Under the pieces are notes generated by a model, which was given only the letters and a program-made list of their open reading frames with translations, made no database searches and was not told the origin of the DNA. Of a stretch of DNA of 64,000 bases, positions 29,787-52,665 are shown in pieces. Numbering within the stretch: position 1 is the first letter of the stretch; every line of letters starts with the position of its first letter. Where the stretch lies: assembly GCA_934563745.1 (NCBI GenBank), contig CAKTHE010000003.1:1-64000 (forward strand), given 5' to 3'. This DNA is from an uncultured Dysosmobacter sp. Lineage in GTDB: Bacteria; Bacillota; Clostridia; Oscillospirales; Oscillospiraceae. Both the position numbers and the translations under genes were made by a program.

Positions 29787-31910
29787 ATGGAAAATCTGTT
29801 CTGGGTTGGGTTTCTGGGTGCGCTCATCGCGGGTCTTTTCGCCTACACGCAGGCGAAAAAAGTGCTGAGCTACCCGGAAGGAACCGACAGGATGCAGAAA
29901 ATTGCTGCCTCCATTCGTGCCGGCGCCAACGCCTATCTGAAGCAGCAGTATACAACTGTATTTAAGGTCTTCATTGTGGTGTTTGTGGTCCTGCTGATCA
30001 TCGCGTTCGCCACCGGCGGCAAGATGCTCTCCAAGTTTACCCCCTTTGCCTTTATCACCGGCGGTATTTTCTCCATGCTGGCCGGCTTCATCGGCATGAA
30101 GATCGCCACCAATTCCAATGCCCGCACCGCCCAGGCTGCTTCGGAGAGCCTGAACAAAGGCCTGCGGGTTGCGTTTTCCTCCGGCTCCGTCATGGGCTTC
30201 ACGGTGGTGGGCCTGGGCATGCTGGACATTACGATGTGGTTCTTCCTGCTGCGCTATGCCTTTGGGATCGATGATCCCGTGGCCCTGGGCAACGTCATGG
30301 TCATGAACGGCATGGGCGCGTCCTTCATGGCGCTGTTTGCCCGTGTGGGCGGCGGCATCTACACCAAGGCCGCCGACGTGGGCGCTGACCTGGTGGGCAA
30401 GGTGGAAGCCGGCATTCCCGAGGACGATCCCCGCAACCCCGCCACCATTGCCGATAACGTGGGCGACAACGTGGGCGACGTGGCCGGCATGGGCGCCGAC
30501 CTGTATGAGTCCTATGTAGGCTCCATTCTGGCGACCTTCTCGCTGGGCGCCGTGGGCGGATACGGATGGAGAGGCATGCTGCTGCCCGTCATGCTGGCGG
30601 TGTGCGGCATCGTGTGCTCCATCATCGGCTCCTTCCTGGTCAAGACCGAGGAGAACGCTACGCAGCAGTCTCTGCTCAAGAGCCTGCGGACCGGCACCTA
30701 TACCGCCGCCGTGCTGGCCGCCGTGCTGGCTGCGCCTTTGACCTATGTCATTCTGGAAGGGCACATGGGCGTGTATGTGGCCATTCTCTGCGGCTTGGTG
30801 GGCGGCTGCGCCATCGGTTATTTTACCGAGTACTATACCTCGGATACGTACAAGCCTACCCAGGATCTGGCCGCCGCTTCTGAGACCGGCTCTGCAACCA
30901 TCATCATCGGCGGTATCTCCCTGGGCCTGAAATCCACTCTGACTTCGATTCTGATCGTGGCGGCCGCCGTCCTGGTCAGCTATTTTGCGGCCGGCGGCTC
31001 CGTGGTGATTGTGGACGCCAACGGCGCGTTCACCGATGCCTTTAACCAGGGCCTGTACGGCATCGGTATTGCCGGCGTCGGCATGCTCTCCACGCTGGGC
31101 ATCACTCTGGCCACCGACGCGTACGGCCCTGTGGCCGATAACGCCGGCGGCATTGCCGAGATGGCCGGTCTGCCGGAGGAGGTCCGTGACCGGACCGACG
31201 CGCTGGACTCCCTGGGCAATACCACGGCCGCGACCGGCAAGGGCTTCGCCATCGGCTCTGCGTCTCTGACGGCGCTGGCGCTGCTGGTTTCCTACGTGAA
31301 CATCGTTCAGTCCAGCACCTCCGAGACCCTGAACTTCACTCTGACCAGCCCCACGGTTCTGGTGGGCATGTTCGTCGGCGCCATGCTGACCTTCGTTTTC
31401 TCCGCCTTCACCATGAGCGCGGTGGAAACGGCGGCTCAGTCCATCGTGGTGGAAGTGCGCCGTCAGTTTAAGGAGATCCCCGGTATTATGGAGTACAAGG
31501 CGGATCCCGACTATGCGGCCTGCGTGTCCCTGTGCACCAAGGGTGCCCTGCATGAGATGGTGGCTCCGGCTCTGCTGGCCATTATCGTGCCGCTGGTTGC
31601 CGGTCTGATCCTGGGGCCCACCGGTGTGGTCGGCCTGCTGGGCGGCGTGTCGGTCACGGGCTTTGCCATGGCTGTGTTTATGTCCAACGCCGGCGGCGCC
31701 TGGGATAACGCCAAGAAATACATTGAGTCCGGCCACCACGGCGGCAAGGGCTCTCCCTGCCACAAGGCAGCGGTCGTGGGCGATACGGTGGGCGATCCCT
31801 TCAAGGATACCGCCGGTCCGTCTCTGAACATTCTGATCAAGCTGTGCTCCACGGTTTCCATCGTGTTCTCCGGCCTGATCATCGCGTTTAACCTGATGGG
31901 CCTGCTGTAA
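29787..31910 (+). CDS. hppA: Membrane-bound ion-pumping pyrophosphatase
   Basis: This 707-residue integral membrane enzyme (about 16 helices) hydrolyses PPi and pumps H+ and/or Na+ outward. The substrate-binding motif DNVGDNVGDVAGMGADLYES and the C-terminal GDTVGDPFKDTAGPSLN are intact. The segment GNTTAATGKG has Ala where K+-independent enzymes have Lys, so this is predicted to be a K+-dependent type. H+ versus Na+ specificity cannot be settled by eye. ATG at 29787 follows AAGGAGTGGAAATTTC. It conserves energy from PPi made in biosynthesis and pairs logically with PPDK. Confidence 0.95.
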   Translation: MENLFWVGFLGALIAGLFAYTQAKKVLSYPEGTDRMQKIAASIRAGANAYLKQQYTTVFKVFIVVFVVLLIIAFATGGKMLSKFTPFAFITGGIFSMLAGFIGMKIATNSNARTAQAASESLNKGLRVAFSSGSVMGFTVVGLGMLDITMWFFLLRYAFGIDDPVALGNVMVMNGMGASFMALFARVGGGIYTKAADVGADLVGKVEAGIPEDDPRNPATIADNVGDNVGDVAGMGADLYESYVGSILATFSLGAVGGYGWRGMLLPVMLAVCGIVCSIIGSFLVKTEENATQQSLLKSLRTGTYTAAVLAAVLAAPLTYVILEGHMGVYVAILCGLVGGCAIGYFTEYYTSDTYKPTQDLAAASETGSATIIIGGISLGLKSTLTSILIVAAAVLVSYFAAGGSVVIVDANGAFTDAFNQGLYGIGIAGVGMLSTLGITLATDAYGPVADNAGGIAEMAGLPEEVRDRTDALDSLGNTTAATGKGFAIGSASLTALALLVSYVNIVQSSTSETLNFTLTSPTVLVGMFVGAMLTFVFSAFTMSAVETAAQSIVVEVRRQFKEIPGIMEYKADPDYAACVSLCTKGALHEMVAPALLAIIVPLVAGLILGPTGVVGLLGGVSVTGFAMAVFMSNAGGAWDNAKKYIESGHHGGKGSPCHKAAVVGDTVGDPFKDTAGPSLNILIKLCSTVSIVFSGLIIAFNLMGLL

Positions 31911-35167: not shown

Positions 35168-35442
35168 AAAAAAAGCCCTGCCCCATATCTGGGACAAGAC
35201 TGAACGTTCCTGCGGTACCACCCAAGTTGATGCAAAGCATCCGCTTTTCTCACATACTGACATATGTGCCGACTGGATAACGGGTTCGGATCCCGGCAGG
35301 TGCTACTCGCCTTTCGGCTTTGGGCTGCCCTCACAAGGCCATTCATCCGTCCGGACTCTGCCGCAATCCCACCGCCTGCGGCTCTCTGAAAGGTTGCCTG
35401 ACTGACTACTCTTCTTGCTCAAAGGTTTTTCTTAATGAAATT
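35168..35442 (-). ncRNA. T-box leader, tryptophan specifier
   Basis: On the minus strand the leader shows the AGAGAGCC segment of stem I, then GATGAATGGCCTTGTGAGGG with TGG (35341-35339) as the specifier codon, then CGAAAGGCGAGTAG. The diagnostic T-box sequence AACTTGGGTGGTACCGC is at 35228-35212. A terminator follows: GTCTTGTCCC pairs with GGGGCAGGGC, then T7 (35174-35168). Uncharged tRNA-Trp would stabilise the antiterminator and switch on the trpXYZ-type importer. Confidence 0.93.
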
Positions 35443-40218: not shown

Positions 40219-42087
40219 ATGAAGAAATTATTAGCTCTGATTCTGACTCTGGCAGCGGTTTTGACACTGTTCACCGGCTGCGGCACCAAACCCGCCGCTC
40301 CGGGCGGAGATTCCTCCAAGGAAGAGGATAAGATCGAAGAGGTGGGCTATACGGCCCCCGCTGCCCCCCGCAGCGGCGTGTTCGAGCCCTTTGGCGCCGA
40401 ATTTTTCAATAACGGCGGCTTTAACGTTCCCGGCAGCACCTTCCAGCCTTCCCGCCCGGATACGAAGGGCACCCGGTTTGAGCCGGTGGAAGTATTCAAG
40501 AACGTGTACTTCATCGGCGATACCTGGGTGTGCTGCCTGCTGTATGTGACCGATCAGGGCAATATCGTGATGTGGGATGCCCTGGAGTATGAGGAGGATT
40601 ATGAGGAGATCCTGCTGCCGGATATGCAGAAGCTGGGCCTGGATCCGGCCAAGATCACCACGGTTTTCCTTTCTCACGGGCATTTCGATCATATCGGCCT
40701 GGCCGGCCACCTGGAGAATTCCAACGGCGCGCAGGTTTACATTGATAAGGGCGATGAAGAGCTGATGCTCTCCAACGCGGAGCGCTATGCCGAAAGCGGG
40801 ACCAAGCTTCCGGAAAACTATAAGTTCTATGAGGATGGCCAGACCATCACGGTGGACAACACCACCTGGACATTCACCCATACCCCTGGCCACACGGCCG
40901 GCTCCACCAGCTTTTTGCTGGACGTGGTGGACTTTGACGGCAACCCGCATAAGCTTTGCTGCTGGGGCGGCACGTCCGCACCCCGTGACGCCGAGGGGAC
41001 CCGGACCTATCTGGACTCCGTGCTGAAGTATCGGGAATTCATCAAGGAATGCGGCGCCGACTCGTTCCTGTCCATGCATCCCTTTGTGGACTACTCGGTG
41101 GAGAATACCACGGCTGTCCGGGAATCCGGCAGCTCGGACGCTCTGATCAAGACGGCCGACGAAATGGACTTCTTTATGCAGGGCCTCTATGTCTATGCCA
41201 CCGGCAAGGGCAAGCTGGCCCAGGACGGGATCAGCGAGTTTACCAACGAGGGCTATAACTGCCGCGTGCTGTCCTGGCCGTACCTGATCCAGATCCCCGA
41301 ATACGATCTGGGCGTGCCCTCGATCTTCAAGGACGAGGCCGTGGATGCCAAGATTTTGGATGACGTCTATCTGATCGGAAACGGTACCGACGCCACGCTG
41401 GTGTTTGACACCACGGACGGGATCGTGCTGATCGACGCCATGACCAGCAACGACGACTTTACGGATATCGTGCTGCCGGCCATGCAGGGCCACGGCCTGG
41501 ATCCCGCGAAGATTCAGGCGGTCTATCTGACGCACGGCCACGCGGATAAATACGGCTTTGCCAACTACCTCAAGGAAACCTACGGCGCGGTGATCTACAT
41601 GAGCGACGCCGACAAGGCGACGGCCGAGGCGGTGTATGCCGCTGCCGTGGCTGCCGGCAAGACCACGGCCGTGCCCGATAGCGAGAATCTGGCAGAGGGC
41701 GCCGTTACCCACGGCCAGTTCACCTTCAACTGGTATGCGACCCCCGGCCACACCAAGGGCACCATGTCCTTCACCGTCAACGTCAGCGTTAACGGCAAGG
41801 AGCATGTGGCGGCGCTGTGGGGCGGCGGCGAGTACGACTACGCTAAATCCGCGCTGGAGGACTACCTTGCCTCCATCGATAAATTCATCGGAATCTGCGA
41901 AAAGGCCAGTGCGGATGTGCTGGTTGCAACGCACCCCTACTTCAACTATTCCGTGGAGAAGATCCACGACATGAGCAAGGGCGATGCAGAGGCCTTCGTG
42001 CTAGATGATGTGAACACCAACGTGATCTTTGCACTCAAGTGCATCAAGCTGGCAACGCAGTATAAGCTGACCTATTACTCCGTGTAA
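40219..42087 (+). CDS. Lipoprotein with two metallo-beta-lactamase-fold domains
   Basis: This 622-residue protein has a lipoprotein signal (LLALILTLAAVLTLFTGC) and a charged linker. Domain 1 spans about residues 90-340 and carries an intact zinc motif HGHFDH (153-158) and TPGHTAGS. Domain 2 spans about 375-610 and carries HGHADK (439-444) and TPGHTKGT, so the last His of the HxHxDH motif is Lys. The two halves look like a tandem duplication of a subclass B3-like fold. It should sit on the outer face of the membrane. The substrate is unknown. It has LytTR-like sites upstream and lies at the start of the SPFH/P-ATPase block. Confidence 0.85.
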   Translation: MKKLLALILTLAAVLTLFTGCGTKPAAPGGDSSKEEDKIEEVGYTAPAAPRSGVFEPFGAEFFNNGGFNVPGSTFQPSRPDTKGTRFEPVEVFKNVYFIGDTWVCCLLYVTDQGNIVMWDALEYEEDYEEILLPDMQKLGLDPAKITTVFLSHGHFDHIGLAGHLENSNGAQVYIDKGDEELMLSNAERYAESGTKLPENYKFYEDGQTITVDNTTWTFTHTPGHTAGSTSFLLDVVDFDGNPHKLCCWGGTSAPRDAEGTRTYLDSVLKYREFIKECGADSFLSMHPFVDYSVENTTAVRESGSSDALIKTADEMDFFMQGLYVYATGKGKLAQDGISEFTNEGYNCRVLSWPYLIQIPEYDLGVPSIFKDEAVDAKILDDVYLIGNGTDATLVFDTTDGIVLIDAMTSNDDFTDIVLPAMQGHGLDPAKIQAVYLTHGHADKYGFANYLKETYGAVIYMSDADKATAEAVYAAAVAAGKTTAVPDSENLAEGAVTHGQFTFNWYATPGHTKGTMSFTVNVSVNGKEHVAALWGGGEYDYAKSALEDYLASIDKFIGICEKASADVLVATHPYFNYSVEKIHDMSKGDAEAFVLDDVNTNVIFALKCIKLATQYKLTYYSV

Positions 42088-42289: not shown

Positions 42290-44440
42290 TTGAAAAAGAA
42301 AAAGACACCGGCCGGCGCAGGCACGTGGCTGGAGTGTGCGTTTTTGCTGCTTGTGACCGGCATATTGGCTGTGTTTGGACGGACGGCCGCAGCCTCCGGC
42401 CTGCTGCGGCAGCTGGCGCGGCTGAGCGGTTACTTTGCGGCCGTCTTGCTGTGCGCGCAGATCTTTGCGGGCCTTCGCAAAAAGAATGAGAGCCGGACCC
42501 CGAAGGTCCGCGCAAAGGCAAAACGGCCCCGTCCCGATCTGCGCGGTGCCTGGAACGTGCTTTGGCAGGACCTGCGCCACCCGCGGGCGGCCGCCGCACG
42601 GCGCCGCGCCCGCAAAAAAGCGGCCGCATCGGCGGAACCGGCACAGATGGAGACCCAACCGCCGGAGCCTGCGAAGGGACCGATGGAACCGGCAGCCGGA
42701 GCAGGCTCCGGAAAAGCTACGGGAGAAGGGGCCGGAGAGGAACTCCGGCCCGAGGAGCCGGCTGCGCCGCTGGCGCAGGCGGAGGCCTGTGAGCCGCCGG
42801 ATGGCCTGGCTGCGCTGGAGAAGGCGCCGCCGTCCGCAGCTGCGGCTGCTGCGCCGGCGAAAGACCGCCCCCGCGGCGCTCGCCGGCTGGATGCCGCATA
42901 CGCGGGGGTGATCCTGGGGCTGACGCTGCTCTTTTTGTACCGGACCCTCCGAGGCCTGCCCGGGTGGGGCACGGAATCCCTGAGCCTGTTCAGCTATGTC
43001 CATGTGCTGGCTTTGACGGCCGCCGCGGTCAGCTGCTTCGTGCTGCGCAAGTTTACGCTTCTGGGCAGTGCCAACGGGCGCTTCACGGCTGCCGGGGCTC
43101 TGATGGTGACGGGAAGTGCCGCCGGGATCCTGGCGGCGGCCACCGCGATCAGCGTTATGCTCAAGCTGGACACCACCCGCGCGGCTGCTGCCGGCCTGGC
43201 TCTTTTGTCCCTGTATGGGGCGGCCATGATCCTGGCGGGACTGGGCAATGCGGCGGTGCGCCTGAGGCTGACCGCCTCGTTTGACTATCCCTTTTACCTG
43301 CCCGGCATCAAAACGGTCGGCCCAAAGGAGGACGAAGCCTTTTTTGACGCGCTGGAGGCGAACACCGGTATTTCGCTGAAGTCCCTGTGGAGCGTCAAAT
43401 ACCTCTTCCGGATCCTCCCGGGGCTGCTTTTGGGGTTCCTTGCCATGCTGATGCTGTCAACCTGTCTTTTCAAGCTGGAGGTTTACCAGCAGGCGGCCCT
43501 GTATCGCTGCGGCGCCCTTACGGAACAGTCGATCTACGGTGCGGGACTGCATCTGAAGCTGCCCTGGCCCATCGACCGGGTGGAGATCTACGATGTGGCG
43601 CGCAGCAAGCAATTTACCATCGGCTATGAAAACGCTACATCCGGAGATTATTTGTGGACGCAGTCCCACGGCGGCGAAGAGTACACCCTTTTGCTCGGCA
43701 GCGGAAACGAACTGGTGTCCATCAATATGCGGGCGATCTATACGATCTCGGATCTTTACCGCTACCTCACCGCGACGGCGGAGCCGGAGCGGCTGCTGGC
43801 GGCCAAGGGCTATGAGATCATGATGCATAAGACGGTCGAGACGGATCTGGACACGCTTTTGAACGTGGACCGGCTGTCCATGGCTGACGATGTGGCGGCC
43901 GAAATGCAGGCCTTCAGCGACGAAGCCGGGCTGGGGATCAAGGTGGAGGCGGTGATCGTTGAAAATATTCATCCGCCCATCGAGGTATCTGAGGTCTATC
44001 AAAGCGTGGTCAGCTCGGACGTGCGCCGCAGCACGCTGATCACGAACGCCGAGGCCCGGGCCCTGCAGACCGTGATCCAGGCGGAGGAGGACCGCAGCAA
44101 GCTGCTTTCCACGGCGGAGACCGGCCAGTATCAGCGCACATCGGAGGCCACACAGCAGATGGCCGTGTATCTGGCGGCCTTTGAAGCATATGACGTCAGC
44201 CCGGAGTGCTTTTTGCTGACTAAGTATCTGGATACATATGAAAAGCTGATCGCCACCCGGAAGATCTATGTGACCGGAGACGGCGTGGACAGCTCCCGTT
44301 TTGTGCTGGGGGCAACGGGCGAAAGCCTGCCGACCGCTGTGGGCTGGTCGGATCTGGAGGATCTGATGGACGAGCAGGAGGGCAAGAAGAACGAGGAAGA
44401 GGAGTTCTTCTATTTCGGCTGGAGTGACGACGGAATGTGA
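42290..44440 (+). CDS. SPFH (HflK-like) protein with polytopic membrane domain
   Basis: This 716-residue protein starts at TTG 42290, which follows GGAGGTGCAACC. Residues 10-60 form two membrane helices. Residues about 70-195 are an Ala/Pro/Glu/Arg-rich linker. Residues about 200-330 contain about four more helices. A last helix (LPGLLLGFLAMLMLST) leads into an SPFH/band-7 domain with the HflK-type start YRCGALTEQSIYGAGLHLKLPWPIDRVEIYD. A helical tail rich in Ala, Glu and Gln follows. HflK usually has one helix and about 400 residues, so the N-terminal module is unusual. Its partners are the two SPFH proteins encoded next. Confidence 0.85.
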   Translation: MKKKKTPAGAGTWLECAFLLLVTGILAVFGRTAAASGLLRQLARLSGYFAAVLLCAQIFAGLRKKNESRTPKVRAKAKRPRPDLRGAWNVLWQDLRHPRAAAARRRARKKAAASAEPAQMETQPPEPAKGPMEPAAGAGSGKATGEGAGEELRPEEPAAPLAQAEACEPPDGLAALEKAPPSAAAAAAPAKDRPRGARRLDAAYAGVILGLTLLFLYRTLRGLPGWGTESLSLFSYVHVLALTAAAVSCFVLRKFTLLGSANGRFTAAGALMVTGSAAGILAAATAISVMLKLDTTRAAAAGLALLSLYGAAMILAGLGNAAVRLRLTASFDYPFYLPGIKTVGPKEDEAFFDALEANTGISLKSLWSVKYLFRILPGLLLGFLAMLMLSTCLFKLEVYQQAALYRCGALTEQSIYGAGLHLKLPWPIDRVEIYDVARSKQFTIGYENATSGDYLWTQSHGGEEYTLLLGSGNELVSINMRAIYTISDLYRYLTATAEPERLLAAKGYEIMMHKTVETDLDTLLNVDRLSMADDVAAEMQAFSDEAGLGIKVEAVIVENIHPPIEVSEVYQSVVSSDVRRSTLITNAEARALQTVIQAEEDRSKLLSTAETGQYQRTSEATQQMAVYLAAFEAYDVSPECFLLTKYLDTYEKLIATRKIYVTGDGVDSSRFVLGATGESLPTAVGWSDLEDLMDEQEGKKNEEEEFFYFGWSDDGM

Positions 44441-44482
44441 CGCGGAGGTCGACAGCCTGCGGCCAAGAGAAGGAGAATGGAC

Positions 44483-45361
44483 ATGCATAAGACATATAAA
44501 TGGATTTTTGCGGCGCTGGTGGCGGTGATCATTGTCGTGTTCGGCTTCACGCTGACGGTTCGGGAGGGGACCAGCGTGCTGGTATCCCGTTTTGGGGAGA
44601 TCCGGGCGATTCATACGGACGCGGGGCTGCACCTGAAATTGCCCTGGCCGTTTGAACAGGCCGTGGTCTACGACACGCGCAGCCAGTACCTGGATTCCGG
44701 CTATACGGAGACCCTGACCAACGATAAAAAGAACATCATTTTGCAGACCTATATGATCTGGCATATCGCCGATGTGCAGAAATATCACATGAGCATCGGC
44801 AATACCGGCGTTGCGGCGGATTATCTCAACGACCTGCTGGCCAATGCAAAAAACGGCGTGATGGGCGGCTATACCCTCTCGAACCTGGTGTCGACGCAGA
44901 ACAATGACCTGCGGGTGGATGAGATCTCGGCGGACATTGAGGAACAGGTGCGAAAAAAGGCCCTGGACAGCTATGGCATCGCGGTGGAAAGTGTGCGCAT
45001 CAAGCGCCTGGCCCTTCCGGACGCCAATGTGCAGAGCGTGCTGGAGCAGATGGTGGCAGACCGGCAGAAATATGCCAACGAGCTGCTGGCGGAGGGCAAG
45101 CGGGATGCGGCCATCATCACCGGAGAGGCCAATGCGGAGGCGGCGCAGATCCTTGCGGATGGAAAGCTGGAGGCCGCTTCCATCGACGCCGAGACGGAGC
45201 GCCAGGTGGCGGAGATCTATCGGGAGGCGTACGAGGATAACGCAGAGCTGTTTATCTTTCTGAAAAAACTGATTGCGCTGGAGAATTCGGTCAACGAAAA
45301 TACAGTGATCGTGATGCCGGCCAGTGACTCGCCCTTTGACATTCTGAATCAGAAGGACTGA
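44483..45361 (+). CDS. SPFH domain protein (HflC/HflK-like), second of three
   Basis: This 292-residue protein has one N-terminal helix (WIFAALVAVIIVVFGFTLTV) and a full SPFH domain (GTSVLVSRFGEIRAIHTDAGLHLKLPWPFE), then a coiled helical arm (RDAAIITGEANAEAAQIL). This matches HflC-type prohibitin homologues, which form large membrane rings that in other bacteria enclose the FtsH protease. No ftsH is in the window. ATG at 44483 was chosen over 44477 because AGGAG lies 7 bases upstream. Confidence 0.9.
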   Translation: MHKTYKWIFAALVAVIIVVFGFTLTVREGTSVLVSRFGEIRAIHTDAGLHLKLPWPFEQAVVYDTRSQYLDSGYTETLTNDKKNIILQTYMIWHIADVQKYHMSIGNTGVAADYLNDLLANAKNGVMGGYTLSNLVSTQNNDLRVDEISADIEEQVRKKALDSYGIAVESVRIKRLALPDANVQSVLEQMVADRQKYANELLAEGKRDAAIITGEANAEAAQILADGKLEAASIDAETERQVAEIYREAYEDNAELFIFLKKLIALENSVNENTVIVMPASDSPFDILNQKD

Positions 45362-45369
45362 GGCGGCCT

Positions 45370-46323
45370 ATGAAGAAAAATGGATTTGAGCGCTTTGAGC
45401 TGATCCTCAGCTCCGTGATCCGCTGCTTTAAATGGATCGTTTTGGCGGCGGTGGTCCTGGTGGCGCTGTCCGGCGTTTATAAGGTGGACAGCGGTGAATG
45501 CGCTGTGGTGCTGCGCTTCGGCAAGCTGGTGGGGGACCGTTACGAGACGCAGGTGCGCCAGCCGGGCCTGCACCTTGCGCTGCCCAGCATGATCGACGAG
45601 GTGATCAAGATCCCGGTGGAGCGGGTGCTGGAGACGGAGATTGCCACGCATTACGGGGCTCCGTCGGCCATTGACCCGGATGTAAACAAAAACGGCTATA
45701 TCATTACCGGGGATAAGAATCTGATTTTGATCGACGCCAAGATCAAATACCGGATCCGGAATCCGGTGACCTATGCCCTGTATGTGCAGGAGATCGACGG
45801 CATTATGAACGGACTGATCAGCAGCGAGCTCAATGCGCTGGCGTCCGGCATGACGGTCGACGATATCCTGACGGCGGAGCGGGCCAATCTGGCGGAGGCG
45901 CTCCTGGAACATGTGCAGGACTTTCTCACAAAGCAGGACTATGGGGTTATGCTGAGCAACATGGAATTTGTGGACATCACGCCGCCGGGGGAGACCAAGG
46001 CTTACTTTGACGCCGTGAACTCCGCCGCCGTCGGGAAGCAGACCCTGATCCAGGAGGCGAATGACTATAAGGCCCAGAAGGTTCTGGACGCCCAGGGCGA
46101 GGCCCGGCAGCTGGTGGACAAATCCAACGTGAATCAAGCCAGCCGTCTGTCGGCTGCCAATGGGGAAATGGCGGAATTTCAGGGGCTTTTCGCCGAATAC
46201 AGCATGAACCCCCGGGTGGTGCTGGATGGCGTTTTCCGCGAACGGGCCAGTGCAGTGCTGGCGAAAATGGGCGCCACGGTGGTCGTTCCGGCGGACGGAC
46301 GTCCCATCTTGTACCTGCCCTGA
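45370..46323 (+). CDS. SPFH domain protein (HflC/HflK-like), third of three
   Basis: This 317-residue protein has one N-terminal helix (WIVLAAVVLVALSGVYKV), then a band-7 domain (DSGECAVVLRFGKLVG, RQPGLHLALPSMID) and a helical arm (IQEANDYKAQKVLDAQGEARQL). It starts 8 bases after the previous gene and is clearly in the same operon. Three non-identical SPFH proteins in a row suggest a hetero-oligomeric ring. Their membership in one operon with a P-type ATPase is discussed under findings. Confidence 0.9.
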   Translation: MKKNGFERFELILSSVIRCFKWIVLAAVVLVALSGVYKVDSGECAVVLRFGKLVGDRYETQVRQPGLHLALPSMIDEVIKIPVERVLETEIATHYGAPSAIDPDVNKNGYIITGDKNLILIDAKIKYRIRNPVTYALYVQEIDGIMNGLISSELNALASGMTVDDILTAERANLAEALLEHVQDFLTKQDYGVMLSNMEFVDITPPGETKAYFDAVNSAAVGKQTLIQEANDYKAQKVLDAQGEARQLVDKSNVNQASRLSAANGEMAEFQGLFAEYSMNPRVVLDGVFRERASAVLAKMGATVVVPADGRPILYLP

Positions 46324-46336
46324 AAGGAGGCGGAGA

Positions 46337-48232
46337 ATGAAACTGTCCTGTGATAAAAGCGGCGCCGCCGCTGTGGAGCGGACACGCCAATATATTTCCA
46401 AGCGGGATAAGGACCGGCTGCGCCAGGATATTTTAACGGCTTCCACGGCGCTGTGCCTGCTGCTGGCGGCCACGCTGCACCGGCGGCTCTTTCCGGATCA
46501 GGAGGCGGTGACCGGCATTCTGTATTTCGTGGGCGTGTGCGTGATCGGGATCCCGATCCTGAAAACGGCGGTGACCGGGCTGCTCCATTCGGACACCGGC
46601 GCGTCCATGGAGATCCTGGTCTCCATCGCCATGGTGATGGAGGTTCTCAGCAATCAGTATACTTTGGCGATCCTGGTCCCGGTGATTTTGACGCTGGTGC
46701 ATTTTCTGGAGGAAAAAAGCATCATGGGCGGCCGGGATGCCATTGAGGGGCTGAAAAGTCTGCAGGCCGTAACGGCCCTTCGTCTGGAGGATGGCCGGGA
46801 GGTGGAGATGGATGCAAAGGATCTGCGGGTCGGCGACCGGATCGTTTTAAAGCCGGGCATGGCGATCCCCATTGACGGAACGGTGCTGGAGGGCCACTCC
46901 AGCCTGGACCAGAAATCCCTGACCGGTGAATCGCTGCCGGTCAGCGCCGGGGCGGGGGATCCGGTTTTTGCCGGAACCGTCAATATGGAGGGGGTCCTGT
47001 TGGTGGAGGTCACCAAAAGCATGGGGGACACGGCCTTCCAAAAAATTGTGGATCTTCTGGAAAATGCAGAGAACATCAGCATTCCCGAGACGCAGATCGT
47101 GGACCGCTTTATGAGCTACTATATTCCTCTGACGCTGATCATCTCGACGCTTACCTGGCTTTTGACCCGGGATATTTCCAAGGCGATCGCCATTCTGGTG
47201 GTCTCCTGCCCCTGCGGCTATCTTCTGGTCAGCTCGGCCCCCATGATTGCGGCACTGGCGGCGGCGTCCAAACGCGGGATCCTGATCAAGAACGCGGCGT
47301 TCATCGAGAAGCTGGCGGATGCCGCGTGCATCATTTTTGACAAGACCGGCACGATCACCAAGGGAACGCTGGAGACGACCAACTATTATCTGGAGCAGGC
47401 GCGCTCCTATGAAGAACTGATCTGCACGGCGGCCAGCGTGTGCTGCAAGTCGCTGCACCCGGTATCCAAGTCGATCACCGCCCTGGCGGCCGAACAGCCC
47501 TTTGACCAGGATCTGACGGTAGAGGAGCAGACCGGCCGGGGACTCGTCGGAAAGAAGAAGGGCTGCGAGGTCATCCTGGGCAATTACCGCTATATTTCCG
47601 GGCTTGGATTCTCCCTTCCGGACCGGTTCGAGTCCGAAGGGGCGGTCAGCTGGGTCGTAAAAAACGGACGGGTTCTGGGCTGCATTGTCCTGCGGGACGA
47701 GCCCCGGGAGGACGCAGCAGAGACGGTGGATGCGCTGAAAGCCCTGGGGGTGGAGGAGAGCTGTATTCTCACCGGGGACAATGCCGCCGCGGCGCAGCGG
47801 GTCGCATCGTCCGTGCACATTGACCGGGTATACAGCGAGCTGCTGCCCGAACAGAAGCTGGAGCATGTGCGGACGCTCAAAGCACGCTGCACGGTTGCGG
47901 TGATCGGAGACGGGATCAACGATGCCCTGGCGCTTGCCGAGGCGGATGTGGGTATTGCCATGGGGGCCATGGGCTCGGACACGGCGATCCAGAGCGCGGA
48001 TATTGCCTTGATGAACAATGACCTTTCCAATATCCCGTTTGCCGTTGTTTTGGCGCGGAGGACCCGCAGCATTATTTTCCAAAACATTGTGATTGCGTTT
48101 TCCATCAGCTTTTTGATGATCTTTCTGGCGGCCTGCGGCGTGATCAGTGCAATGGCAGGGGCGTTCCTGCATAACATCGGCGCATTTGTGGTGCTGTTCA
48201 ACAGCGGACGCCTGCTGCGTACCGCTTCCTGA
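46337..48232 (+). CDS. P1B-type heavy-metal-translocating ATPase
   Basis: This 631-residue ATPase has the actuator motif TGES (196-199), the metal-site CPC (291-293) within SCPCGYLLVSSAP, the phosphorylated Asp D335 in DKTGTIT, the P1B nucleotide-domain HP in SLHPVSKSI, and GDGINDALALAEADV. It lacks an N-terminal HMA metal-binding domain. The last helices read FLHNIGAFVVLFNSGRLLR, which does not fit the signatures I know for Cu, Zn/Cd or Co types, so the ion is unknown. It follows the third SPFH gene by 13 bases. Confidence 0.9.
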   Translation: MKLSCDKSGAAAVERTRQYISKRDKDRLRQDILTASTALCLLLAATLHRRLFPDQEAVTGILYFVGVCVIGIPILKTAVTGLLHSDTGASMEILVSIAMVMEVLSNQYTLAILVPVILTLVHFLEEKSIMGGRDAIEGLKSLQAVTALRLEDGREVEMDAKDLRVGDRIVLKPGMAIPIDGTVLEGHSSLDQKSLTGESLPVSAGAGDPVFAGTVNMEGVLLVEVTKSMGDTAFQKIVDLLENAENISIPETQIVDRFMSYYIPLTLIISTLTWLLTRDISKAIAILVVSCPCGYLLVSSAPMIAALAAASKRGILIKNAAFIEKLADAACIIFDKTGTITKGTLETTNYYLEQARSYEELICTAASVCCKSLHPVSKSITALAAEQPFDQDLTVEEQTGRGLVGKKKGCEVILGNYRYISGLGFSLPDRFESEGAVSWVVKNGRVLGCIVLRDEPREDAAETVDALKALGVEESCILTGDNAAAAQRVASSVHIDRVYSELLPEQKLEHVRTLKARCTVAVIGDGINDALALAEADVGIAMGAMGSDTAIQSADIALMNNDLSNIPFAVVLARRTRSIIFQNIVIAFSISFLMIFLAACGVISAMAGAFLHNIGAFVVLFNSGRLLRTAS

Positions 48233-48234
48233 AA

Positions 48235-48308
48235 ACAGCCCGGCAGCCCTTCCGAAGAAAGGCTGCCGGGCTGTGAAAAAGCAGGCATACCGTTTGTATG
48301 CCTGCTTT
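48235..48308 (+). terminator. Double hairpin after the P-type ATPase gene
   Basis: ACAGCCCGGCAGCC/GGCTGCCGGGCTGT (48235-48274) is followed by AAAGCAGGCATAC/GTATGCCTGCTTT (48278-48308). Both stems are perfect. The second has a short T run in its 3' arm only, so together they probably terminate or protect the SPFH-ATPase transcript. Confidence 0.65.
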
Positions 48309-50957: not shown

Positions 50958-51650
50958 ATGATTTATTCGACGGAAGTACAGAATATGTGCCCCGTTGCCA
51001 AGGGCGCATACCATGGTCCGGCTCCCATTCCGGAAGAGGGGAAATGGGTGCAGGCCAAGGAAATCAAGGACATCTCCGGCCTGACGCACGGCGTGGGCTG
51101 GTGCGCACCGCAGCAGGGCGCCTGCAAGCTGACGCTGAACGTGAAAGATGGGGTCATTGAGGAGGCACTGGTGGAGACCATCGGCTGCTCCGGTATGACC
51201 CACTCCGCTGCAATGGCTTCGGAGATTCTGATCGGAAAGACGCTGCTGGAGGCACTGAACACGGACCTGGTGTGCGACGCGATCAACACGGCCATGCGGG
51301 AGCTGTTTTTGCAGATCGTCTACGGCCGCACGCAGACGGCTTTCTCGGAGGGCGGCCTGCCCATCGGCGCTTCGCTGGAGGATCTGGGCAAGGGCCTGCG
51401 CTCTCAGGTGGGCACAATGTTTGCCACGAAGGACAAGGGGCCCCGCTATCTGGAGCTGACGGAGGGCTACTGCACGCGCCTGGCCCTGAACGCACAGGAT
51501 GAGATCATCGGCTATGAGTTTATTAATCTGGGCAAGATGATGGAGAGCATCAAAAAGGGCGTGGATGCCAACGAGGCTTTGGAAAAGGCCAAGGGGCACT
51601 ACGGCCAGTTTGAAAACGCTGCCAAATACATCGACCCCCGGCAGGAATAA
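50958..51650 (+). CDS. NifU/IscU-like iron-sulfur scaffold-type protein
   Basis: This 230-residue protein is related to NifU N-terminal (IscU-type) scaffolds. The segment LVETIGCSGMTHSAAMASEILIGK corresponds to the scaffold's conserved Cys-Gly-Ser/Ala helix start. Other candidate cysteines lie in GWCAPQQGAC and EGYCTRLAL. The N- and C-terminal extensions are longer than in IscU. It is always of interest next to GGGtGRT proteins. Fe-S binding has not been shown to my knowledge, so function is inferred. It has its own consensus promoter and lies 16 bases before the next gene. Confidence 0.8.
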   Translation: MIYSTEVQNMCPVAKGAYHGPAPIPEEGKWVQAKEIKDISGLTHGVGWCAPQQGACKLTLNVKDGVIEEALVETIGCSGMTHSAAMASEILIGKTLLEALNTDLVCDAINTAMRELFLQIVYGRTQTAFSEGGLPIGASLEDLGKGLRSQVGTMFATKDKGPRYLELTEGYCTRLALNAQDEIIGYEFINLGKMMESIKKGVDANEALEKAKGHYGQFENAAKYIDPRQE

Positions 51651-51666
51651 GAAGGGAGGAGCTGTT

Positions 51667-52665
51667 ATGAGTCTTTTTGAAAACTACGAAAGACGGATTG
51701 ATAAAATCAACGCCGTCCTGGAAAAAGAGGGCATTGGCTCCGTGGAGGAGTGCCTGGAGCTGTGCCGGGCCGCCGGCTTCGATCCCTATGAAACGGTCAA
51801 GGGCATTCAGCCCATCTGCTTTGACGATGCGGCCTGGGCCTATACCGTGGGCTCGGCCATTGCCCTCAAGCGCCGGGTGAAGTCCGCCGCCGAGGCGGCG
51901 GAGGTCATCGGGATCGGCCTGCAGGCGTTCTGCATTGACGGCTCTGTGGCCGCGGACCGGAAGGTCGGCCTGGGCCACGGCAATCTGGGCGCGATGCTGC
52001 TGCGGGATGAGACCAAGTGCTTTGCCTTCCTGGCCGGGCATGAGTCCTTTGCCGCCGCCGAGGGCGCCATCGGCATTGTCCGCAACGCCAACAAGGCCCG
52101 GAAGGAGCCCCTGCGGGTCATCCTCAACGGCCTGGGTAAGGACGCTGCCCAGATCATCTCCCGGATCAACGGCTTCACCTATGTGCAGACCCAGTTTGAC
52201 TATTATACCGGCGAGCTGAAGATCGTCCGGGAGATCCGCTATTCGGAGGGCGAACGGGCGGCGGTCCGCTGCTACGGCGCCGACGACGTCCGCGAGGGCG
52301 TGGCGATCATGCATGCAGAGGGCGTGGATGTGTCCATCACCGGCAACTCCACCAACCCCACCCGTTTCCAGCACCCGGTGGCCGGCACTTACAAAAAAGA
52401 GTGCATAGAGCAGGGAAAGAAGTATTTCTCCGTCGCCTCCGGCGGCGGCACCGGCCGGACGCTGCATCCGGACAATATGGCGGCCGGCCCTGCCAGCTAC
52501 GGCATGACGGACACCATGGGCCGTATGCATTCCGACGCGCAGTTTGCCGGCTCCAGCTCGGTCCCCGCACATGTGGAGATGATGGGTTTTATCGGCATGG
52601 GCAATAACCCCATGGTGGGCGCGACGGTGGCTTGCGCGGTGGCAGCGGCAGCTGCGGTGAAATAA
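51667..52665 (+). CDS. GGGtGRT family protein, function unknown
   Basis: This 332-residue protein contains the family's exact motif in ASGGGTGRTLHPDNMAAGP (near residue 260), and the length matches the family norm of about 330. Other conserved-looking stretches are GLGHGNLGAMLLRDETKCF, ITGNSTNPTRFQHP and GFIGMGNNPMVGATVACA. There are few Cys and no signal peptide. The start ATG at 51667 follows GGGAGGAGCTGTT. Its partner is the NifU-like gene just upstream. Glycine-rich loops suggest a nucleotide or phosphate ligand, but that is a guess. Confidence 0.88.
   Translation: MSLFENYERRIDKINAVLEKEGIGSVEECLELCRAAGFDPYETVKGIQPICFDDAAWAYTVGSAIALKRRVKSAAEAAEVIGIGLQAFCIDGSVAADRKVGLGHGNLGAMLLRDETKCFAFLAGHESFAAAEGAIGIVRNANKARKEPLRVILNGLGKDAAQIISRINGFTYVQTQFDYYTGELKIVREIRYSEGERAAVRCYGADDVREGVAIMHAEGVDVSITGNSTNPTRFQHPVAGTYKKECIEQGKKYFSVASGGGTGRTLHPDNMAAGPASYGMTDTMGRMHSDAQFAGSSSVPAHVEMMGFIGMGNNPMVGATVACAVAAAAAVK

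Follow-up and report, generated by a model that had tools for sequence, protein, structure and literature searches.

SPFH proteins are reported from all kingdoms of life (PMC12624060), and what most of the bacterial ones do is described as unclear (PMC12005517). Among the closest known systems, the bacterial HflK/HflC assembly surrounds the protease FtsH and reaches into the periplasm (PMC12048511), and a preprint describes domes of stomatin, a human erythrocyte protein, that enclose the transporters aquaporin-1 (AQP1) and UT-B (PMC12407830). The operon considered here lies in a stretch of 64,000 nucleotides (the window) from contig CAKTHE010000003.1 of an uncultured Dysosmobacter sp., and encodes three SPFH proteins, termed SPFH-A, SPFH-B and SPFH-C, followed by a P1B-type ATPase (Table 1). 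The likeness to the human stomatin would be that of an SPFH dome enclosing a transporter. We consider it probable that the three SPFH proteins co-assemble as a dome dedicated to a metal transporter and, together with the pump, form a single membrane machine.

Three SPFH proteins and a metal ATPase in one operon

An earlier note on this DNA had pointed to four adjacent, tightly spaced genes, and this description holds: all four lie on the + strand, with gaps of 36 bases between SPFH-A and SPFH-B, 8 between SPFH-B and SPFH-C and 13 before the ATPase gene. It had also called all three SPFH proteins HflK/HflC-like. Each indeed contains a Band_7 domain (Pfam); SPFH-B scores over the TIGR01932 hflC cut-off (148.9 versus 134.4 bits), and SPFH-C falls narrowly under the TIGR01933 hflK cut-off (155.5 versus 159.4 bits) and matches HflK in the PDB with an E-value of 3.9e-26. 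SPFH-A, however, is not a plain HflK: its score against the hflC/hflK models of NCBIfam is 79.3 bits, far under cut-off, and about 325 residues of transmembrane domain stand before its SPFH part. The operon resembles the HflK/HflC-FtsH system in that SPFH-B falls on the HflC side, SPFH-C on the HflK side, and the predicted structure of SPFH-A matches HflK (7vhq). It differs in having three SPFH genes instead of two, a CDF-fold domain in SPFH-A and an ATPase as the partner. In agreement with the earlier note, no ftsH was found nearby when all six frames of the window were scanned for two narrow motifs, the FtsH-type Walker A and HExGH.

The AlphaFold2 (AF2) model of SPFH-A, with a mean predicted local distance difference test score of 75.5, consists of a CDF-fold domain of six transmembrane helices, a seventh transmembrane helix (TM7), the Band_7 SPFH domain and a long C-terminal helix. 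Fold matches of this model assign its N-terminus to the transmembrane fold of CDF transporters (YiiP, the ZnT family). The two H-x3-D pairs of metal ligands of CDF transporters, in TM2 and TM5, are nevertheless missing in the aligned columns of the window SPFH-A and of 50 of 50 SPFH-A N-termini, and we therefore do not file this domain as a working CDF transporter. It is probably a dock or scaffold for the pump.

The ATPase contains E1-E2_ATPase and Hydrolase (HAD) domains only (Pfam), in agreement with the earlier note that it has no HMA domain, and it passes heavy-metal models (TIGR01525, 505 bits with a cut-off of 346.25; TIGR01512, 453 bits). The earlier note, which had said that the last helix lacks familiar metal signatures, had overlooked the CDF-fold domain of SPFH-A and the classical CPC motif of the ATPase. 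This motif is present in TM6, where C291 and P292 are invariant across 20 cassette ATPases and C293 is kept in at least 90% (CPG, CPF and CPT occur in a few relatives); the last helix, LHNIGAFVVLFNS, does deviate in the alignment from the Zn-type and Cu-type paralogs, which we take to be those with the Asp of ZntA and the MxxSS of CopA, respectively. Its HN...NS pattern partly resembles an unnamed paralog group (L092, L102, L099), the comparison set being paralogs, and this motif comparison of the ATPase helices did not resolve the cargo. Many Verrucomicrobiota cassette ATPases have His-rich or CxxC N-termini; the window ATPase has none in the alignment.

Recurrence of the unit and fusion to transporters

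A search of a species-genome collection with SPFH-A as the only query yielded 484 relatives, of which the best 80 loci were kept and their open reading frames scored by phmmer. SPFH-A is carried by 72 of these 80; the other eight (L060, L066, L067, L070, L074, L076, L078, L079) are HflK-type matches without the long N-terminus or the ATPase. Once the seven contigs that stop before the ATPase site are set aside (L002, L006, L022, L026, L028, L036, L056), the ATPase is present in 61 of 65 assessable SPFH-A loci, partial copies having been confirmed in L016, L025, L027 and L072. The order is A-B-C-ATPase in 52 of the 61 and ATPase-A-B-C in five, and four are incomplete, cut or frameshifted (L048, L065, L064, L016). 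Median gaps in the 52 are 15 bases between A and B, 7 between B and C, and 36 between C and the ATPase (the last from 51 values). According to record titles, ATPase-bearing loci come from Bacillota, Treponema, Synergistaceae, Planctomycetota, Verrucomicrobia, Lentisphaerae, Desulfosarcina, Riflebacteria and Fermentibacteria, among others. The earlier note would have been refuted by a lack of conserved linkage in other strains; this is clearly not the case, and counts that started from SPFH as well as from the ATPase exclude a chance neighbourhood.

Samples not selected for the ATPase give a similar picture. In the phylum sample of the Verrucomicrobiota locus L029 (115 genomes, including the Lentisphaera genome of L071), the SPFH-A profile matches 56 genomes, 46 of them with at least 270 bits. 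Of the 20 loci that come next after the first when ranked by SPFH-A score, 18 have B, C and the ATPase. SPFH-A matches 76 of the 197 genomes from the order of L001; only four matches are long (>400 bits), and all four are accompanied by B, C and the ATPase. Among plasmids, the SPFH-A of L063 matches 20 records, five of which are annotated as the FtsH modulator hflK, and a search with the L280 ATPase gives 10 records at E ≤1e-60. Every one of these is among the 20 and holds SPFH-A on the same strand, about 2.3-2.6 kb away. Four plasmid regions that were inspected have the order HflK, HflC, HflK/SPFH, P-type ATPase; a plasmid DNA search with the operon matched 268 records, the five listed being short ATPase patches. 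The four-gene unit is widespread but patchy. In L029, L032, L040, L045, L046, L058 and others (Verrucomicrobiota, Planctomycetota, Lentisphaerota) the cassette is set inside an ABC-2 transporter cluster, in which a permease adjoins SPFH-A and an ABC ATPase, a second permease and a further unnamed protein lie downstream (Pfam); clustering of the locus proteins found these families in 31, 29, 24 and 21 loci.

A quick tree of 93 ATPases was built without five duplicate cassette copies and without ATPases under 560 amino acids. In it the 56 cassette ATPases form one clade with a support of 99 (SH-aLRT, the Shimodaira-Hasegawa-like approximate likelihood ratio test), to which neither the 22 paralogs, drawn from seven genomes, nor the 15 ATPases fused to SPFH domains belong. 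A more careful tree of 61 ATPases, from which one long-branch paralog (L109_0) was dropped, puts the ATPases of four proteobacterial plasmids within the cassette clade (100/100), whereas those fused in planctomycete and Verrucomicrobiota proteins share a clade of their own (98/97); with separate clades in both trees, a common origin of cassette and fused ATPases is not supported. When 95 SPFH proteins were placed in a tree, A (100/98), B (97/99) and C (100/99) each formed one clade of 24 rows; B stands beside HflC, and both A and C fall with HflK. Another tree, of 90 proteins and with further families, recovers A (98/91), B (100/99) and, more weakly, C (90/56); it leaves the deep order open and does not support one clade for all transporter-linked A proteins. 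Since A, B and C form clades of their own, canonical HflKC is rejected as the sole reading.

A related alternative, that the trio is an HflK/C paralogue which recruits or restrains FtsH and governs how the metal ATPase is turned over, not its transport, would fit the proximity of B and C to HflC and HflK in sequence and trees and the reported enclosure of FtsH by HflK/C in E. coli (PMC12048511). We regard it as rather improbable. The motif scan found an FtsH-like open reading frame in none of the 80 loci, nor in the window, and five of 21 genomes searched (G166, G159, G004, G160, G164) have a separate strong HflC of 237-289 bits, so that in those five the cassette is additional. A protease adaptor, moreover, would not predict that transporter families are swapped within the SPFH-A polypeptide.

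Such swaps are what the fusions display. In protein P0006 (1,111 amino acids) a P1B ATPase and an SPFH domain form one chain. With its SPFH part as query 158 proteins were found; all 120 listed have PF01145 and PF00702, most of them also PF00122, and Foldseek with the fusion model gave P-type ATPases among the 50 rows listed. This SPFH part finds matches in 101 of the 148 genomes sampled from the class of L043 (Thermoguttaceae, Planctomycetota), and each of the best 25 loci holds ATPase and SPFH in one reading frame. Four further P1B-SPFH fusions occur in the Verrucomicrobiota sample (L270-L273), all with B and C. The sample from the phylum of L058 gave matches in 78 of its 149 genomes, no listed match having a frame as long as the ATPase fusion; six loci from this sample (L111, L112, L116, L122, L127, L131) carry instead an ArsP_1-SPFH fusion (Pfam), with B and C beside all six, and both of the two such proteins tested exceed the cut-off of 300 for the SO_0444 Cu/Zn efflux family (337.6 and 397.9). 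CDF-SPFH fusions were found in five loci, two by Pfam (L050, L114) and three by similarity (L214-L216), with B after all five and C after four, L114 being cut; in the columns where SPFH-A has lost its ligands, all five retain both H-x3-D pairs. Genome G164 carries all three operon types. At L131:10020-13756, between two SPFH operons of one genome, there are an ABC ATPase, a MacB/FtsX-type permease and a DUF3299 protein, and a conserved gene stands directly upstream of the CDF-SPFH fusion at L214:8870-9790 and L215:9228-10133, in the order of L001.

In both AF2 models the transporter helices are followed by one transmembrane helix and then by the SPFH domain. An even number of transporter helices and a cytoplasmic N-terminus would put the SPFH domain outside the cell; for SPFH-A, the seven predicted transmembrane helices and a K/R-rich N-terminus point to the same side. 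SPFH-A also has a signature, a W-x3-H motif in an insertion of the SPFH domain. Its W456 and H460 are invariant in the SPFH-A alignment (48 rows), and W-x(2,3)-H was found by pattern in 65 of 69 A proteins; the anchor pattern failed in three of the four misses, and the fourth (L071) has W-x4-H. The motif recurs in 97 of 98 P1B fusions with a readable anchor, in four of four Verrucomicrobiota P1B fusions and in four of four plasmid A proteins; among the 25 planctomycete fusion loci it is present in 20, four are unreadable by pattern, and L157 is without it. The same pattern was found in none of 65 C proteins and none of the seven canonical HflK proteins examined.

The fusions bear as well on the possibility that the genes are merely co-regulated, with a common response to metal stress and no common complex. 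A shared operon and metal regulation would yield synteny, and many clusters of Verrucomicrobiota and Planctomycetota contain ABC-2 transporter genes as well. This explanation nonetheless seems very improbable to us: SPFH-A homologues are fused to three transporter families and SPFH-A itself has the CDF fold, which argues that physical proximity is needed, and A, B, C and the ATPase all divide into the same two subclades.

A putative dome over a metal transporter

Recurrence in many phyla, together with fusions to three transporter families, speaks for an SPFH assembly that serves a metal pump. Most likely, A, B and C build a dome over the transporter. The earlier note had imagined a ring of SPFH proteins that encloses or regulates the pump. 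The linkage and the fusions favour this idea. Gene order, conservation, clades, fusions, the CDF fold of the model and the loss of its ligands are observed; the dome or ring, the enclosure of the pump, the metal and the direction of transport are what we infer, the complex being read here from genes and single-chain models. The three proteins would form a dome like that of HflK/C, set on the outside of the cytoplasmic membrane and serving a transition-metal transporter, here the P1B ATPase, instead of FtsH. The pump's metal pathway would open inside this dome, which may act as an antechamber controlling the destination of the metal and its back-leak. In related systems, the N-terminal slot of A holds a working transporter, be it a CDF protein, an SO_0444/ArsP_1 permease or the ATPase itself. 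It is possible, if somewhat doubtful, that these systems constitute one modular class of bacterial SPFH metal-transport domes, in which A is a socket whose N-terminal slot accepts a CDF, SO_0444/ArsP_1 or P1B transporter or retains a dead CDF to dock a separate P1B pump. B and C would then in most cases complete a chamber outside the cytoplasm, filled or emptied by the pump, and in solitary planctomycete fusions the fused SPFH domain alone may form the ring.

Several observations weigh against a dome of this kind. Native HflK/C is reported to be open and nautilus-shaped (PMC12048511), so a closed chamber is not implied. The ATPase is missing from four of the 65 loci (L042, L050, L059, L071), with an obvious substitute only in L050, and two of the 20 Verrucomicrobiota loci (L251, L266) have SPFH-A alone. 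The unit is rare near the window, with four of 197 genomes in the order of L001, and in the class of L012, where at most four candidates per genome were scored, ATPase matches above 400 bits occur in two of 291 genomes, both known cassettes. The W-x3-H motif is missing from all six ArsP-type and three of five CDF-type A proteins. A recount of the planctomycete P1B fusions, in which longer flanks were searched with B and C profiles, refuted the idea that B and C follow every fusion: SPFH-B comes after only 10 of 25, with SPFH-C behind it in all seven of these whose flank was extended, 14 have neither nearby, and one contig (L139) ends too soon. B and C are, it follows, not required everywhere. 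P1B-SPFH fusions without B or C (L162, L165, L166, L282, L284-L293) are possibly one-gene metal domes. At L059:10405-11775, in a locus without a visible ATPase, SPFH-C has a His-rich N-terminus.

A probable relative in print is the hmtA locus of Pseudomonas aeruginosa, PA2434-PA2439, in which the P1B ATPase HmtA and HflK/HflC-family genes share one locus and the listed genes are up 5.6- to 14.4-fold in a znuA mutant (PMC4542158). Zinc depletion raises proteins of the locus, significantly PA2438 and PA2439 according to the authors (PMC11761036); in another study Zur shifted the promoter of its first gene, and hmtA mRNA was not repressed by zinc (PMC8531726). The likeness of this zinc-responsive locus to the operon is read from annotation and gene order, and proteobacterial plasmid copies of the same order have ATPases that share a clade with that of the window. 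Three SPFH genes from a single operon, which would be those of the hmtA locus, probably PaFlo5-6-7, have been deleted in strain PA14 with mild phenotypes; that the mutant grew normally in rich medium counts against the dome reading, and the main text of the report uses the word ATPase 0 times (PMC13086221), as does that of a 2009 survey of SPFH proteins (PMC2636767). The earlier note's claim of a new kind of microdomain transporter must accordingly be tempered: the hmtA locus is probably a known but hitherto unrecognised relative, and the system is not wholly without precedent. No prior description of an SPFH-metal transporter system was noticed among the papers listed in searches of an open-licence library.

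Other metal genes occur beside related operons. ZIP genes stand directly upstream of ArsP-SPFH in L169 and L171, a FUR-family gene and a ZIP gene lie downstream of the P1B fusion operon of L160, and the plasmid copy L281 has zinc ABC-transporter genes and a copper chaperone gene nearby. Zinc, perhaps together with copper, is the most likely cargo. The direction is another matter, since HmtA is reported as an importer, which fits poorly with a chamber purely for export. The ATPase might then import zinc or copper, the dome collecting or filtering the metal first. Induction of the hmtA locus by zinc depletion in two studies, the shift of its promoter by Zur in one, the ZIP genes and the zinc genes near L281 would all suit such an uptake dome. 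We still judge it unlikely: CDF, SO_0444 and most P1B families are exporters, zinc did not repress hmtA mRNA in the Zur study (PMC8531726), and a review lists hmtA as an exception among Zur-bound uptake genes, with an import direction in need of confirmation (PMC10393844).

Gene calls, flanking genes and implications

Table 1. Positions of the operon's features in the window, and related loci referred to in the text
Feature	Position or locus	Strand	Remarks
SPFH-A	42290..44440	+	716 aa (amino acids); TTG start behind GGAGG
SPFH-A N-terminal domain, residues 8-323	42311..43258	+	CDF zinc-exporter fold, metal ligands absent
SPFH-A TM7, residues 367-389	43388..43456	+	AF2 model; anchor of SPFH domain
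W456-x3-H460 motif	43655..43669	+	in SPFH insertion; SPFH-A alignment
SPFH-B	44477..45361	+	294 aa; HflC-type (TIGR01932, tree)
SPFH-C	45370..46323	+	317 aa; HflK-type (TIGR01933, PDB match, tree)
P1B-type ATPase	46337..48232	+	631 aa; no HMA domain
CPC motif of TM6	47207..47215	+	sequence, alignment of ATPases
DKTGT phosphorylation site	47339..47353	+	ATPase
His612-Asn613, last helix	48170..48175	+	alignment with paralogs; presumably Asp in ZntA-type
14-base perfect inverted repeat	48235..48274		directly 3' of ATPase stop; read by eye from sequence
SPFH-A without recognisable B, C or ATPase beside it	L251:6079-8064, L266:6194-8140		Verrucomicrobiota
Planctomycete fusions with B	L134, L135, L136, L146, L148, L150, L151, L155, L156, L157		

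The hairpin-like inverted repeat behind the ATPase gene is the probable end of the operon; in this form it is not among the entries of a consensus scan. A weak promoter-like match (9/12) at 44449-44478, between SPFH-A and SPFH-B, may allow separate transcription from SPFH-B onward. At the gathering threshold, Rfam has a sole match in the whole window, a distant T-box leader on the - strand (35187-35431, 94.8 bits), and hence no RNA control element for the operon. The flanking genes have no obvious link to it (Pfam): upstream a double metallo-beta-lactamase-fold protein (40219-42087, with a lipoprotein-like start before its two metallo-beta-lactamase-fold stretches), downstream a LytTR response regulator and a GHKL-type kinase. 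Elsewhere in the window are a membrane H+-pyrophosphatase (29787-31910) and a NifU_N-like gene followed by a gene of the GGGtGRT family (50958-52665).

The partnership, which recurs in many unrelated bacteria and at times as a fusion, suggests that bacteria build protein domes dedicated to the handling of metals such as zinc. If so, HflK/C-type domes would extend from proteolysis to ion transport, and a set of SPFH proteins genetically tied to metal transporters would gain a concrete cargo and a slot that is swapped among transporter families. The single-polypeptide P1B-SPFH version, of about 1,000-1,200 amino acids, could be purified. The system would also offer a new handle on HmtA, the ATPase reported as an importer: should the modular class be real, the odd import of HmtA might reflect a pump studied without its dome.

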